In this document: positions 2,785 through 46,917 of the stretch, piece by piece
How the letters are laid out: each line of letters begins with the position of its first letter
How positions within the stretch are numbered: position 1 is the stretch's first letter
Assembly (NCBI GenBank): GCA_015222805.1
Contig: JADFVZ010000066.1
Coordinates: forward strand, 1-48,016
Source: Pseudomonadota bacterium
Lineage (GTDB): Bacteria; Pseudomonadota; Gammaproteobacteria; Xanthomonadales; SZUA-36
Reading direction: 5' to 3'
Length of the DNA: 48,016 nucleotides
Position numbers and translations under genes: made by a program
Notes under the pieces: model-generated
Databases searched by the model: none
The model's input: only the letters and a program-made list of their open reading frames with translations
What the model was told of the DNA's origin: nothing

Positions 2785-5478
2785 ATGAGCTGGAAAGCGA
2801 AGATATTTAAACCCAACTGGGAATCCCGTAAAACTGAAAAACGCCTGCAAAGCGTAAACAAAGATAATGTTCAGGGCTTGTGGAATGCCCTCCCGGGAAT
2901 TATCAGTTCAGATCCCGATTACCAGGTCCGCCTGGCAGCACTCAAGCGCCTGACTTCAAATAAAGCACATGACCCGGTAAAACGCTTTGAGTTTATGCTC
3001 GAACGCTTAAATTCGCTGCCGCTTGAGGGTGAAGCAGATGATCGTGAGCAATACCAGTATTTTGAGAAATTCAAAAACCAGCTGGCACAGCATATACAGC
3101 GTGACTTACTTACATTAACCATAGACACGGATGTGGCTGCAGCCTACATGGAGAACAACGCCAGTGCAAAAGAAATAGAAACCCTGGCTAAACGTGCCAG
3201 CAGCATCAATGTACGCCTGGCGGCTATCAACCAGATCAGTGCCAACGGCTTGTTGGGTGACCTGGCGATAAAAGAAAACGAAGCCAGCTTGCGCCGGCTC
3301 GCTGTCAGCCGGATTGAGCAGGTATCAACTCTTGAACGCGTCGCTAAAGCGATCCGTACACGGGACAAAAAACTGTATCATCAGATCCGCGAACGCCTGT
3401 TTGATTCTGCAGAACACAACGCCGCAGAAACAGCAGACCATGAGGCTGAAGAAATATGCAGACAGCTGGAGCAAATGCTTAAAGCTGCAAGTTCCGGGGT
3501 ACACCCCGCGCCTGCTGCATTGCAAAAACAGTGGAATAACATGCAAACAGCGGCAACCCCCCCACTACAGCAGCGCTACCAGACCCTGTTGAAAACCATT
3601 ACCACTACCATCGATGGCAGTGCGGTAAAACAACCCGTGGCAATTAAACCTGTAGTTGAAAACAAAGTTCAGGATAACAGGAAAACTGATCCCAGCGACG
3701 GAAAACCAGCAGCCAAAAAAATAGCAGAAGCAAGCAGGACAGAACCGGAAAAAGCTGAAATTGATACTGCACAGCTGCAGAAGAAAAAACGTGAAGAAGA
3801 ACGCAATCAGCGAGCCCTTGAGGCGAAACTGGCAGCTGATAATATTCATACTAAACAGGATGAATTAGCTATTGCGATCGAAGCAGTGGATCTCAAAAAA
3901 GCAGTGAAACTCCTGCAGGAAATCCGCAAAGACCTTTCCAGCCTGCGCAAAAACCGCATGGCAAAATCGCATCTACCGGCACTGGAAGGACGCCAGTCGC
4001 GTTTACATGGAAAGGTAAAAAGCCTGCGTGACTACCAGCACTGGGCAAATAATAAAATCCGTTCCGAAATGATAGAAGAACTGCAATCCATGTCTACTGT
4101 TGATATGCATCCGGACGCCGTTAAAAACCTGATTTCAGACGCACGTAAAAAATGGCAGGCACTGGAAACCAGTGAGCAGTTGCCCGGGGATAAGTATTTC
4201 CATGCTCCCGCCAGCCTGTGGAGGGAGTTTAATCAAACTTGTGACCTGGCATTCAAACTAATCCAGCCATACCTCGAAAAACGTCATGCGATACAGGATG
4301 ATCACCTGCATGAAGACCAGCAACTGCTGGCCGACGGAAAAGAACTGTTACTGGCTGAAGACAGTAACGCCAATAATTTGATACAGCATCAGCGCAAACT
4401 TCGAACTGCGATACGGGAGCTGGATAAAATTCCGGCAAAACAGCGAGGCAAAACCGCCAGGCTAATTCGGGCACAGCTGGATAAACTGCAAACCCGGATA
4501 GATACTGCCTTTGAGCAAATCGAAACCGAAAAATCCCGCCTGATCCGTCAGGCTGAACAACTGGTTCATATTGAGGACAAGCAAGAGGCGATTAACCAGG
4601 CGAAACAACTGCAACGCCAGTGGCAGGCGGCAGGTAGCGGCAACCGTAAAAAAGAACAGCCCATGTGGGAAAAATTCCGCAGCCATATTGATCCTCTGTT
4701 TAAACAACAGGCAGACCGACAAAGTGCGGAAAAAGAAGCCTCGAAGAAGCAGCTAGCACAGCTAAAGGAGCTCTGCTCCCAGCTTGAAGGTATTGCCAAA
4801 CTTGATGCCGGTGAGTTGAGCCTACAAAGTGGCCGGGTCCAGAGCCTGAAGCACGACTGGCAGGAACAGGGTGGTTCCGCCCTGCGCCACGACAACAAAC
4901 TAAATTTGCGTTTCCAGGCCGCTATTGAACTATATAAACGCGCATTGCAGACATCTAAAAGCCAACAGCTTTTATTGCAACGTAAAAACTGGCAAGTCAA
5001 AGATAAGCTGTTGATGAAACTGCGTACAACAATATCCGAAAAACCTGAAAAAGCTGAAGCTACGATAACTAAAACTGTCAACAAATGGCCGCAAACGGAA
5101 GCCGGTAATAACATCGACAAATTGCTCGACAGGCAACTGCAGGACATCAGGCAGCAAGTGACAGACAACAGCTTCCAAGTCGCCCCTGAGGCCAACGAAA
5201 CCCATCAGGAACAATACCGGGATTTGTGCCTAACCCTGGAGTACCTTGCCGGACTGGATTCACCAAAGGCTGAGAAACAATACAGGATGGACATGCAGAT
5301 CAAGCGTCTTGCTGAAAACCTCTCAGGTGAAGTCTTACGCATGCCCCTGGCGGAAGAAGTCGATAAACTCGAAGCCTCCTGGTATCAGCTACCAATGATC
5401 ACGGAAGATAATCGCACAGCTTATTGCAATCGCTTTGCACTTGCAATTGATGAACTGCTTACTCAAATCAACAGCTGA
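2785..5478 (+). CDS. DUF349 domain protein
   Basis: This large 897-residue charged protein has no signal peptide or membrane segment and is probably cytoplasmic. Residues 1-200 contain HEAT-like helical pairs (for example DYQVRLAALKRL and INVRLAAINQI). A Lys/Glu-rich low-complexity linker lies at about 290-345. The remainder is a chain of long helices with the repeated pattern 'L-x-x-x-W-x-x-x-G...W-x-x-F' of DUF349 (for example LQRQWQAAGSG followed by MWEKFRSHIDPLF near residues 610-640). DUF349 proteins of this size occur in gammaproteobacteria, but their biochemical role is not established. The gene ends 16 bp before the antiporter gene, and the two may form an operon. Confidence 0.85.
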   Translation: MSWKAKIFKPNWESRKTEKRLQSVNKDNVQGLWNALPGIISSDPDYQVRLAALKRLTSNKAHDPVKRFEFMLERLNSLPLEGEADDREQYQYFEKFKNQLAQHIQRDLLTLTIDTDVAAAYMENNASAKEIETLAKRASSINVRLAAINQISANGLLGDLAIKENEASLRRLAVSRIEQVSTLERVAKAIRTRDKKLYHQIRERLFDSAEHNAAETADHEAEEICRQLEQMLKAASSGVHPAPAALQKQWNNMQTAATPPLQQRYQTLLKTITTTIDGSAVKQPVAIKPVVENKVQDNRKTDPSDGKPAAKKIAEASRTEPEKAEIDTAQLQKKKREEERNQRALEAKLAADNIHTKQDELAIAIEAVDLKKAVKLLQEIRKDLSSLRKNRMAKSHLPALEGRQSRLHGKVKSLRDYQHWANNKIRSEMIEELQSMSTVDMHPDAVKNLISDARKKWQALETSEQLPGDKYFHAPASLWREFNQTCDLAFKLIQPYLEKRHAIQDDHLHEDQQLLADGKELLLAEDSNANNLIQHQRKLRTAIRELDKIPAKQRGKTARLIRAQLDKLQTRIDTAFEQIETEKSRLIRQAEQLVHIEDKQEAINQAKQLQRQWQAAGSGNRKKEQPMWEKFRSHIDPLFKQQADRQSAEKEASKKQLAQLKELCSQLEGIAKLDAGELSLQSGRVQSLKHDWQEQGGSALRHDNKLNLRFQAAIELYKRALQTSKSQQLLLQRKNWQVKDKLLMKLRTTISEKPEKAEATITKTVNKWPQTEAGNNIDKLLDRQLQDIRQQVTDNSFQVAPEANETHQEQYRDLCLTLEYLAGLDSPKAEKQYRMDMQIKRLAENLSGEVLRMPLAEEVDKLEASWYQLPMITEDNRTAYCNRFALAIDELLTQINS

Positions 5479-40994: not shown

Positions 40995-41089
40995 CAGTAA
41001 AGCTCAAGATTAAGTTGCGCCAAGGATAACATTACTGCTGCAGACTGGCATACAATATGCAGCCTGCACAATTGCATTTTATTTGCACT

Positions 41090-41569
41090 ATGGCTAAAAA
41101 GAAGAAAAAAACCAGCTCAGGCAACACCATTGCGGTGAATAAACGCGCGCGCTTTGAATATCAGATTGAAGAACGGATTGAAGCCGGGCTTTCACTACAG
41201 GGCTGGGAGGTCAAATCCCTGCGTGCGGGCCAGATCCAGTTCGGGGACAGCTATGTCCTGCTCAAGGATAATGAAGCCTGGTTGTTTGGTACATTAATCC
41301 CACCCCTGCCAACTGTATCTACGCATTATATTCCCGATCCAACCAGGACCCGTAAGTTGCTGATGCACCGCACTGAGATTAATAAATTAACTTCTGCGGT
41401 TGAGCGCCAGGGTTATACGGTAATACCGACCGCCATGTACTGGTCAAAGGGCAAAGTAAAGGTTGAAGTGGGCATGGCCAAAGGTAAAAAGCAGCACGAC
41501 AAACGCAAAGTTTCTAAAGATCGGGACTGGAAAATTCAGCAGGGTCGGATTATGAAAGGCCGGCATTAA
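41090..41569 (+). CDS. smpB: SsrA-binding protein SmpB
   Basis: SmpB binds tmRNA and brings it to stalled ribosomes for trans-translation. The 159-residue protein starts at the ATG at 41090 with MAKKKKKTSSGNTIAVNKRA; an in-frame upstream Met would add 11 untypical residues. The OB-fold body has the family motifs FEYQIEERIEAGLSLQGWEVKSLRAGQ and KLLMHRTEINKL, and the basic tail ends KDRDWKIQQGRIMKGRH with the DW/IxxGR pattern needed on the ribosome. Its partner RNA gene ssrA is 1.7 kb downstream. Confidence 0.97.
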   Translation: MAKKKKKTSSGNTIAVNKRARFEYQIEERIEAGLSLQGWEVKSLRAGQIQFGDSYVLLKDNEAWLFGTLIPPLPTVSTHYIPDPTRTRKLLMHRTEINKLTSAVERQGYTVIPTAMYWSKGKVKVEVGMAKGKKQHDKRKVSKDRDWKIQQGRIMKGRH

Positions 41570-43252: not shown

Positions 43253-43358
43253 ACACTATCCAAACCTGGGGGCGACCTGGATTCGACGTGGGTCAGAAAA
43301 CCCAAGGTGCATGCCGAGCTGTAGTTACGCTCGTAAAACCAACTACAAACTTTTAGTT

Positions 43359-43391
43359 GCCAACGACGACAACTACGCACTAGCAGCTTAA
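43359..43391 (+). CDS. tmRNA proteolysis-tag reading frame
   Basis: The resume codon GCC at 43359 is followed by AAC GAC GAC AAC TAC GCA CTA GCA GCT TAA, giving the tag ANDDNYALAA. The E. coli tag is ANDENYALAA, so only one residue differs, and the ClpXP-recognised ALAA end is kept. It has no ribosome binding site of its own; it is entered by trans-translation. Confidence 0.95.
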   Translation, partial: ANDDNYALAA

Positions 43392-43611
43392 AAACCTGCT
43401 CAGCGCCTTCTGCCCGGCTTGTGCCTGTACGACCGGATCCCAGGAGTCACCCCATACAGGATCGTGTTGAAGCATTTCCGCTGCCGATACATTAAAACTT
43501 AGCCGGAATCGCACCAGGTTTTCCCTGCTCTTCGGGTAACCCGGTGCTAAATTAATAGAAGAGATAAGCATGTAGAGCCGAAGGCAGACTACTTACGGAC
43601 GCGGGTTCGAT

Positions 43612-43892
43612 CAACAAAGGTCGCATCTGTCCGCAAGGATAGAATGAAAACGGAGCTCACATCGGTGAAACCTAAGGTCGCAAGACTACGGCAATACCGA
43701 GGGGTAGGAAGAAGGCCAACTTCAGGCCTGCCCTGTAGAGACTTATAGACCTGCTGAACCATGTAATCCATGGCAGAGCAGATACTAGGATTCACATGAA
43801 AACTAGCATGTGAATAACACGCTCCGCCCCATCACAGCTTGTGATGGGTGAAGGTATAGTCCAGCCGCTGTCGAAAGACAGGGAATACGCTG
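43612..43892 (+). mobile_element. Group I intron (IA-like) in the tmRNA T-loop
   Basis: This 281-nt self-splicing intron candidate has no ORF. The 5' exon ends in U (43611) and the intron in G (43892), as required. P1: exon CGAU (43608-43611) with GUCG (43620-43623), giving the U-G wobble at the splice site. P2: CTGTCC-GCAA-GGATAG (43627-43642). P3: CGGAGC (43651-43656) with GCTCCG (43821-43826). P4: TCGGT/ACCGA; P5 tip GGTC-GCAA-GACT; P6 AGGCC/GGCCT. P7: GACT (43740-43743) with AGTC (43858-43861) in the S-element AAGGTATAGTCC. P8: CCCATCAC/GTGATGGG. P9: CTGTC-GAAA-GACAG. Two extra hairpins between P7 and P3 (43751-43781 and 43790-43815) fit P7.1/P7.2 of subgroup IA. Confidence 0.93.
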
Positions 43893-43917
43893 TCCCGCCG
43901 CCTCCACCAATTGGTAT

Positions 43918-43943
43918 CTCCCGGCTCACTGAGCCGGGATTTT
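43918..43943 (+). terminator. Terminator after ssrA
   Basis: The stem CCCGGCTC/GAGCCGGG (43920-43927 with 43931-43938), loop ACT, is followed by ATTTT. It lies 10 bp after the mature tmRNA 3' end and before the homing endonuclease gene. The U-run is short, so some readthrough is possible. Confidence 0.8.
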
Positions 43944-44726: not shown

Positions 44727-45005
44727 TCATCCATGCTGTGTTTTTTTTAAATCACGGTAAAAATTTTCATGAAATCCAACAGCCAATAAAGTGATTTCTT
44801 CTTCATTGTAAGTGTAAGCCAGTAAATAGAGCAGTACTTTTAATTTATATTTGTAAACCCAAACACGCCGCAGATCACCTGATTTTTGTTCTCCAATTTT
44901 AGGGTTACCTAAAATTTGTTTAACTGCCACATCCAGTGCTTTTTTTTCATTTGTCTTAAATTTTTTTATAGCTCGTTTGAAGTTGTTAGTCTGTGAAACT
45001 TTCAT
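44727..45005 (-). CDS. RelE/ParE-family toxin
   Basis: The 92-residue basic protein has the RelE/ParE fold pattern: NNFKRAIKKFKTNEKKALDVAVKQIL helices, then strands GDLRRVWVYKYKLKVLLYLLAYTYNEEEITLLAVGFHENFYRDL. The late 'L-L-A-V-G-x-H-E-N-F-Y' end is a common variant of the family. RelE types cut mRNA on the ribosome, whereas ParE types poison gyrase; the sequence does not decide between them. Its start overlaps the upstream antitoxin stop by one base (TAATG), so the two are translationally coupled. Confidence 0.82.
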   Translation of the reverse strand: MKVSQTNNFKRAIKKFKTNEKKALDVAVKQILGNPKIGEQKSGDLRRVWVYKYKLKVLLYLLAYTYNEEEITLLAVGFHENFYRDLKKTQHG

Positions 45006-45223
45006 TAACCAAACTCATATTCCGAAACTTGATCACTTTTCATTTCTTCTAAGCTAATCAATGTAGCACTTACAAATGCAAGTGGTAAGTCGGGATTTTC
45101 CTCCGCAATTTTACCAATAGAAGCCCAATGTTCTATTTGCTTTGGTGGGCTTCTATGGTTCACTAAAGCATATCTTTGAGCATCATCGATAAGCTGATCT
45201 GATAATTTAATAGCTTTTGACAT
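45005..45223 (-). CDS. ParD-like antitoxin
   Basis: The 72-residue protein begins MSKAIKLSDQLIDDAQRYALVNHRSPPKQIEHWASIGKIAEENPDL. This matches the ParD-like antitoxin family, whose members have the 'R-S-x-x-x-Q-I-E-H-W-A-x-I-G-[KR]' block. It is a ribbon-helix-helix-type DNA-binding protein that would neutralise the toxin and repress the operon. The ATG at 45223 is used; it has AAGGA nine bases upstream, while a TTG two codons earlier is less likely. The toxin gene follows immediately. Confidence 0.82.
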   Translation of the reverse strand: MSKAIKLSDQLIDDAQRYALVNHRSPPKQIEHWASIGKIAEENPDLPLAFVSATLISLEEMKSDQVSEYEFG

Positions 45224-45296
45224 AATCAAGGTTCCTTTTTAATTAGAAGGTTTCATATTAACTCTAAAGGTTTTAGTTTGCAACCTTAGCTTAGCC

Positions 45297-45508: not shown

Positions 45509-45850
45509 ATGAAACAGAATAAAAATAAAAATATACAGAAGTCGCGGGGAAACGAGACACCTAAGACATCTATTGTCCGTTCATCGGCAGCGGAATATCT
45601 GACCTTTGTCGCGGCAAGTGGTATGGGAGGTGTCGAGGCTGTTTATGTGGATGAAAATATCTGGTTGAGTCAGAAAATGATGGGCGTTCTTTATGATGTT
45701 GAAACGCAAACCATCAACTATCACCTGAAAAAAGTGTTTGCTGATAGTGAACTGGAAGAACATTCAGTTATTCGAAAATTTCGAATTACTGCCGTAGACG
45801 GTAAAAATATTTTGAAGAGCAGTTATAGCGCATTCGGGAAGTCAGACTGA
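45509..45850 (+). pseudogene. Truncated RhuM-family (virulence RhuM) gene
   Basis: The 113-residue frame covers only the N-terminal third of RhuM-type proteins (usually about 330 residues). The family pattern is clear: VDENIWLSQKMMGVLYDVETQTINYHLKKVFADSELEEHSVIRKFRITAVDGKN. After that the homologous 'Y-x-x-x-Y-N-L-D-x-I-I-A-V-G-Y-R' continuation is missing, and the frame ends ILKSSYSAFGKSD. A GGTGGA precedes the ATG, so a short product could still be made. The deletion of the 3' part suggests island decay. RhuM functions are unknown. Confidence 0.75.
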
Positions 45851-46168: not shown

Positions 46169-46432
46169 ATGGCTAAATCCGCCGCCATCAATATGCGTGT
46201 TGAACCCAGTCAACATTCCCTACTTACTAAAGCAGCTCAAGTGTTAAATAAGGATAGAAGCGTTTTTATTCTGGATGTTGCCTGCCGGGAAGCCGAGAAT
46301 GTGTTGCTAGACCAGCGCTTTTTCCAGCTGGATGAAAATGCATTTTCAGCTTTTGACTCTGCCCTTGAAGCTTCTATACCTGACAATACCAAATTAAAAT
46401 CTCTGCTTGCTAAGCCTTCACCATGGGAATAA
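46169..46432 (+). CDS. DUF1778 (TacA-like) antitoxin
   Basis: The 87-residue protein has an N-terminal ribbon-helix-helix (SAAINMRVEPSQHSLLTKAAQVL, then DRSVFILDVACREAENVLLDQ) and a C-terminal toxin-binding tail ending LLAKPSPWE, where the P-W pair is typical of DUF1778 antitoxins. It should neutralise the acetyltransferase toxin and repress the operon at the upstream operator. It overlaps the toxin gene by 10 bp. Confidence 0.9.
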   Translation: MAKSAAINMRVEPSQHSLLTKAAQVLNKDRSVFILDVACREAENVLLDQRFFQLDENAFSAFDSALEASIPDNTKLKSLLAKPSPWE

Positions 46433-46917
46433 GCACGCACCCGGTTGTCTTAAATGAAAATCATAGTGTGTCTAAATTTGACTGTGGCAATGATACCCTT
46501 AATGACTGGCTTAAAAAGCGCGCCCTGAAAAACCAGAAGAATGGTGCTAGCCGCACATTTGTCATCTGTCAGAAAAGTCTGGTGATTGGTTACTATGCAC
46601 TCGCCAGTGGCAGTATTGAGCGAGTGGCATCCCCGAAATCTGTTGCCCGTAATATGCCGGAACCCATTCCAGTAATGATATTGGGTCGGCTAGCTGTTGA
46701 TACACACATGCAGGGGCAAAAATTAGGCTCGGCATTATTGAAGAATGCCCTGCTGCGCACACTTTCTGTATCAAAAAATGTGGCTATTCGTGCGGTATTG
46801 GTACATGCCATTTCTGTAGATGCCAGGCGTTTTTATTTGAGCTATGGATTCCAGGTCTCGCCTATTGACCCAATGACCTTGATGCTTCCTATCCGACACA
46901 TTGAAAATCTTTTGTAA
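46423..46917 (+). CDS. GNAT-family toxin (TacT-like acetyltransferase)
   Basis: The 164-residue GNAT protein is of the type paired with DUF1778 antitoxins. Members of this group acetylate charged tRNA and block translation. It opens with FDCGNDTLNDWLKKRALKNQ, a typical start for the group. The acetyl-CoA loop is GRLAVDTHMQGQKLGSALL with Q-G-Q-K-L-G at about 97-102. The likely catalytic Tyr is in FYLSYGF near 141-147. All motifs are intact, so the pair should be active. Confidence 0.9.
   Translation: MGISTHPVVLNENHSVSKFDCGNDTLNDWLKKRALKNQKNGASRTFVICQKSLVIGYYALASGSIERVASPKSVARNMPEPIPVMILGRLAVDTHMQGQKLGSALLKNALLRTLSVSKNVAIRAVLVHAISVDARRFYLSYGFQVSPIDPMTLMLPIRHIENLL

Follow-up and report, generated by a model that had tools for sequence, protein, structure and literature searches.

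We found that the tmRNA gene in the window (the whole 48,016-nucleotide stretch of DNA that was analyzed) is interrupted in its T-loop by a group I intron and is immediately followed by a free-standing gene for a LAGLIDADG homing endonuclease. We consider it probable, at roughly three chances in four, that the two constitute a two-part mobile module that propagates by collaborative (trans) homing, in which we infer the splicing, the cleavage specificity, the homing and the addiction alike, and in which the endonuclease most likely spreads and protects the intron. The interrupted tmRNA gene had been described in an earlier note on this DNA. The most telling part of the locus is the endonuclease gene, which begins 65 nt past the CCA end of the tmRNA and which that note missed. 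The features are collected in Table 1.

Table 1. Features at the interrupted tmRNA locus, with their positions in the window and the basis of each assignment.
Feature	Position	Strand	Basis
SmpB, protein partner of tmRNA	41057..41569 (listed ORF; likely start near 41090)	+	translation read by eye, without family search
344-nt tmRNA exon 1, with the reading frame for the ANDDNYALAA tag	43268..43611	+	RF00023, 167.5 bits; acceptor, T-arm and tag by direct reading
281-nt group I intron that separates bases 6 and 7 of the T-loop and has P7.1/P7.2 insertions	43612..43892	+	RF00028, empty sites, compensatory changes
tmRNA exon 2, 17 nt, CCA at end	43893..43909	+	direct reading; same TCCCGCCGCCTCCACCA in uninterrupted relatives
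terminator-like hairpin, tail TTTTCC, between tmRNA and endonuclease gene	43919..43939	+	
single-motif LAGLIDADG homing endonuclease gene, free-standing, 148 aa	43975..44421	+	Pfam, PDB profile, predicted fold, dN/dS

Across the two junctions the sequence reads GGACGCGGGTTCGAT (up to 43611), CAACAAAGG...TACGCTG (up to 43892) and TCCCGCCGCCTCCACCA (up to 43909). The proposal that joining 43611 to 43893 restores the T stem-loop and yields a tmRNA of 361 nt (344 + 17) was confirmed by direct reading: the joined T stem-loop is GCGGG-TTCGATT-CCCGC, the acceptor is GGGGGCG/CGCCTCC and the tag reading frame, ANDDNYALAA, is closed by a stop codon. The Rfam model for tmRNA (RF00023) matched with an E-value of 1.2e-67 and its alignment breaks precisely at the T-loop, the T-arm being complete once the 281-nt insert is removed; ARAGORN reported zero genes at this locus. 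In the same family, tmRNA genes that lack the insert provide the empty site, GGTTCGAT|TCCCGCC, with both flanks identical to those in the window and GGACGCGGGTTCGATTCCCGCCGCC as the intron-free T-arm sequence. Since only a single tmRNA gene was found in the genome (86% complete), the remaining weak matches being tRNA-sized, trans-translation in the organism should depend on splicing.

Judged by its sequence, the insert is a group I intron, and one that would be spliced out. The Rfam model for such introns (RF00028) matched it over 43599-43883 with 29.9 bits (E 5.7e-5), and the match to the intron at locus L058 reached 39.2 bits (E 1.6e-6), both below the gathering score of 50. The check with covariance models that had been suggested for this locus thus gave a strong match for the tmRNA model and, for the intron model, a match below the gathering score; the assignment made in the earlier note is upheld by this match taken together with the exact empty sites and the compensatory changes. 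The insertion point, TTCGAT|T, corresponds to subsite 7 of the published scheme by our own mapping of the numbering. Some two dozen homologues at the same site were compared, in two aligned sets of 14 and 10 sequences. In all intron-bearing tmRNA genes collected, the U at position -1 pairs with an internal G and the last intron base is a G. The U-G pair that had been noted at the 5' splice site is present in 14/14 and 10/10 of the aligned introns; the P1 of the window has only about 4-5 pairs. Compensatory changes were found in 43 of the 82 predicted pairs in the set of 14 and in 31 of 79 in the set of 10. Pairs changed on both sides include some in P2, P6, P7.1, P7.2 and P9, and in the set of 14 also in P3, which switches in step from G-C to A-U in four sequences. 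The P7 strands, GACU and AGUC, are present and invariant, so that they give no covariation signal, and form a pseudoknot outside the nested prediction. A good P10 pairing was looked for in the intron of the window and none was evident. An intron in the T-loop of tmRNA is in itself of an already known kind, as the note had supposed, with 883 intron-form tmRNAs published (PMC11915505). Two peculiarities were seen within P7.2 of related introns: in L045 (genome G019) the hairpin, GGGGTTCGATATGCCCC, which lies around 110 nt before the intron 3' end, resembles the T-arm of a tRNA, and the introns of L072 and L089 contain a similar inverted repeat of around 50 nt, CCCCTCTCCCGCTTGCGGGAGAGGG, like a small inserted repeat element.

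The protein encoded downstream is, on the basis of profile matches and structure prediction, an endonuclease of the I-CreI/I-MsoI type, for which DNA cleavage is predicted. It matched PF00961 (4e-8) and PF14528 (1.7e-5) in Pfam, and I-MsoI and, weakly, the bI3 maturase (2ab5) in a profile search of the PDB. The AlphaFold model made with an alignment has the I-CreI/I-MsoI fold (alpha-beta-beta-alpha-beta-beta-alpha) with a mean pLDDT of 88; a prediction from the single sequence had a pLDDT of 50 and was of no use. The acidic residue of the LAGLIDADG motif is kept, as Asp in the window and its congener and as Glu in the others, in an alignment made without the G703 protein. Between the window and the congener, dN is 0.13 and dS 1.06 (dN/dS 0.12), and in the closest pairs with measurable dS the ratio ranges from 0.08 to 0.24; the endonuclease family is under purifying selection. 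In a simple scan, a hairpin was found in most related loci at the spot equivalent to that between the tmRNA and the endonuclease gene.

To what extent intron and endonuclease belong together can be read from their distribution. A profile search of 369 genomes spread over the class recovered the endonuclease in 19, in every case immediately downstream of the tmRNA gene and on the same strand, although for G431 this adjacency is read across a 127-base contig overlap; none was found away from tmRNA in these genomes. Where the start codon was readable, it lies 31-164 nt after the CCA, in many families. An independent search for the intron, with a pattern composed of the intron 3' end and exon 2, gave 21 genomes, and G712 was added by reading, which makes 22 of the 369. 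Both elements occurred in 17 genomes, the endonuclease alone in 2, the intron alone in 5 and neither in 345 (Fisher p 5e-23, for genomes from about 20 families that are not wholly independent). Among the 39 genomes of the window's own family, just three have the endonuclease (G000, G035 and G008), and in each of them the tmRNA gene is interrupted; a fourth, G019, has the intron without the endonuclease. The presence of the module is patchy inside genera. A phylum-wide sample of 378 genomes yielded the window's own genome as the sole match, and within the sampling done the module seems restricted to a portion of the class.

These data bear on the explanation that the tmRNA integration hot spot picked up the endonuclease gene as cargo, with no functional tie to the intron. 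The 3' ends of tmRNA genes gather mobile DNA, toxin-antitoxin genes lie downstream in the window, and a second tmRNA 3' end is found behind the endonuclease gene in G441 and G581. Such cargo, however, would not account for an intron in 17/19 of the genomes with the endonuclease vs 5/350 of the others, nor for the constant position and strand of the gene in many families and the zero matches elsewhere in the 369 genomes; we regard this explanation as unlikely.

The toxin-antitoxin cluster itself spans 44727-45229 (-), 45509-45850 (+) and 46169-46917 (+), and contains a ParE/ParD-like pair, a short fragment that on reading alone resembles RhuM, and a TacA antitoxin with a TacT-like GNAT protein behind it. 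The cluster precedes a gene that, again on reading alone, resembles one for a Na+/H+ antiporter, and no integrase is visible in it. A second copy of the tmRNA 3' end (att site), which would mark an integrated island, was looked for in the window and not found. A plasmid as carrier of the module was rejected, with no match at the DNA or protein level, and so was a phage, as the matches in phages and viral contigs are distant LAGLIDADG proteins with 23-36% identity. Two species of the same genus have, behind the endonuclease gene, a further tmRNA 3' end that is uninterrupted, GGTTCGATTCCCGCCGCCTCCACCA (L050, 1961-1985, and L063, 1936-1960); it resembles an attachment-site duplication, and the bases farther upstream of the presumed target differ. 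In several family members the last bases of the tmRNA, CCCGCCGCCTCCACCA, recur downstream within a GC-rich repeat (in L010, L015, L027 and L034 some 120 bp past the end of the tmRNA; also in L019), and in most of them a hairpin follows these bases.

The two elements were encountered in various states among the relatives. Around a dozen copies, the window among them, have the intron together with an intact endonuclease frame. The intron is accompanied by a broken endonuclease in G581, G705, G452, G589, G728, G556 and G698, and stands without endonuclease in G019, G478, G487, G428 and G579. Five intron carriers of the class sample had no match to the endonuclease profile, one of which, G698, keeps a remnant. 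Given these carriers, the intron can persist alone. The endonuclease beside an uninterrupted tmRNA gene was broken in 3/3 cases, by a stop codon in G476, a frameshift in G410 and a cut-off in G034. The absence of intact copies there is expected if the enzyme would cut its own chromosome; considering that close to half of the intron-associated endonucleases are also broken, three cases are too few for significance. The tmRNA gene of the window's congener G034 (L039, contig 27, about 3680-4330, minus strand) has an intact 3' end and, around 300 bp downstream and past short repeats, it is followed by a displaced intron, exon 2, the hairpin and the first endonuclease codons. The layout reads as a natural loss of the intron, with a new tmRNA 3' end inserted at the T-loop. 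Other rearrangements were observed in G452 (contig 1; L064 and L068), where the endonuclease gene lies in two pieces around 2.5 kb apart, as by a later insertion, and in G410 (contig 29; L066 and L069), where the broken endonuclease and its preceding hairpin occur twice, 8.4 kb apart. The second copy in G410 is preceded by only GCCGCCTCCACCA of the tmRNA, as in a flanked insertion or a duplication at tmRNA.

The introns at this site fall into two lineages; identity is around 53% between the lineages and at least about 60% within each. One genus contains both (G441 vs G581, with exons 1 that are 92% identical and introns that are 52% identical), as does one family (G703 vs G764 and G778). The endonuclease tree, in which the first seven residues of G703 are in the wrong frame and outside the conserved core, requires 5 changes of intron-lineage label where 5.5 are expected at random, and 0% of the bootstrap trees had a single change. 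An AU test of the constraint that each intron lineage has a single endonuclease clade gave p 0.051 on a poorly resolved tree. Moreover, G703 and G728 have introns that are 98% identical and endonucleases that are just 64% identical. A single shared history of intron and endonuclease was not supported by a comparison of their distances (r 0.08, p 0.11). Because the endonuclease tree does not follow the intron lineage and the identities in the pair G703/G728 differ, the two elements seem to reassort, which fits collaboration in trans and not one composite mobile intron. That one endonuclease lineage acts as the common partner of two dissimilar same-site intron lineages in many families, as an addiction module that forces retention of the intron, is a tentative reading that we consider somewhat doubtful.

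LAGLIDADG proteins include some maturases, and the protein might accordingly aid the splicing of the adjacent intron rather than act as a homing nuclease; the location of its gene next to the intron and the weak profile match to the bI3 maturase would fit such a role. Considering that the protein is of the single-motif homodimer type and groups with the I-CreI/I-MsoI nucleases, that the acidic catalytic residue is retained, that the introns of five genomes do without the gene and that two dissimilar introns are accompanied by the same protein family, a maturase is quite improbable. The proposal that the intron lost an endonuclease of its own and that the free-standing gene, now decaying, was later deposited alongside by chance repair, a route proposed for phage ICP1 (PMC10448857), has in its favor that endonucleases are known inside tmRNA introns elsewhere (36/883; PMC11915505) and that nearly half of the copies are broken, yet it is very improbable given around a dozen intact frames, purifying selection on the family and an architecture that recurs in about 20 families, which argues for a working pair that spreads, and it bears on the origin of the arrangement and is compatible with collaborative homing at present.

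Collaborative homing is recognized by a free-standing endonuclease gene that adjoins an intron lacking an ORF, and this arrangement was found in 17 genomes of the class sample. The homodimer-type LAGLIDADG endonuclease would cut the T-loop of intron-free tmRNA genes, where the presumed target is identical in the intron-free relatives. The DNA of the T-arm is an inverted repeat (GCGGG-7-CCCGC), which would suit a homodimeric enzyme of the I-CreI type. Repair off an intron-bearing copy would then move the intron, the 17-nt exon 2 and the adjoining endonuclease gene jointly; as exon 2 is so short, a repair tract of around 530 nt past the intron suffices to include the gene. The intron splits the target and would in this way shield the host's own site from the nuclease. 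With the nuclease gene located outside it, the intron could not be lost by itself without exposing the target, and the nuclease gene and the intron may therefore act as an addiction module that stabilizes the intron.

For the route by which mobile introns acquired homing endonucleases, a free-standing nuclease that targets the insertion site has been proposed as an intermediate, with a handful of phages as the examples to date. Here, an endonuclease beside an intron appears to be a stable arrangement that is widespread on bacterial chromosomes, and it occurs at a gene that is important for ribosome rescue. With intact, decaying and lost stages present across lineages, a cycle of gain, decay and loss becomes testable by comparison. 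In addition, the family constitutes a natural set of I-CreI-type nucleases that are predicted cutters of one conserved tmRNA site.

I-CreI and I-MsoI are chloroplast endonucleases that are encoded within introns and have 23S rRNA genes as their target. The protein of the window resembles them in its single motif, its size (about 150-170 aa for the type), its fold and its profile match; its gene, in contrast, lies outside the intron. The published tmRNA introns, 883 unique forms from 21 phyla at four T-loop subsites, have the T-loop site, the rules for the -1 U and the terminal G and the P7.1 region in common with the intron of the window; the majority is at subsite 7, as here, and their mean length is 293 nt vs 281 nt in the window (PMC11915505). 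Endonuclease genes were reported in 36 of the 883, in P7.1 or after P9, thus inside the intron, and genes outside are not mentioned (PMC11915505), whereas the gene in the window is outside both the intron and the tmRNA gene. In the literature covered by our search, beyond which most subscription papers lie, no report was found that places an endonuclease gene outside the intron of a tmRNA gene, and searches restricted to the inside of these introns underestimate how many have an endonuclease. The closest parallels come from phages. In cyanophage S-PM2 the psbA intron protects the target of the neighboring endonuclease F-CphI, which in turn makes the intron mobile (PMC6083498). As in the window, a free-standing endonuclease gene adjoins the gene with the intron; in the phage, the intron prevents self-cleavage and the allele without it is cut, for which we infer a counterpart here. 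The phage system differs in that it concerns a protein gene and an Endo VII-type enzyme with proven cleavage, and not an RNA gene on a bacterial chromosome and a LAGLIDADG protein with predicted cleavage (PMC6083498). Likewise, in T3/T7-like phages and in ICP1 the intron occupies the target of the nuclease, whose gene lies alongside it instead of inside, but these few cases involve phages and other nuclease families, whereas here many bacterial families are concerned (PMC3984707, PMC10448857). An endonuclease gene beside, instead of inside, an intron has so far been described only in phages; in our data about twenty bacterial lineages have it.
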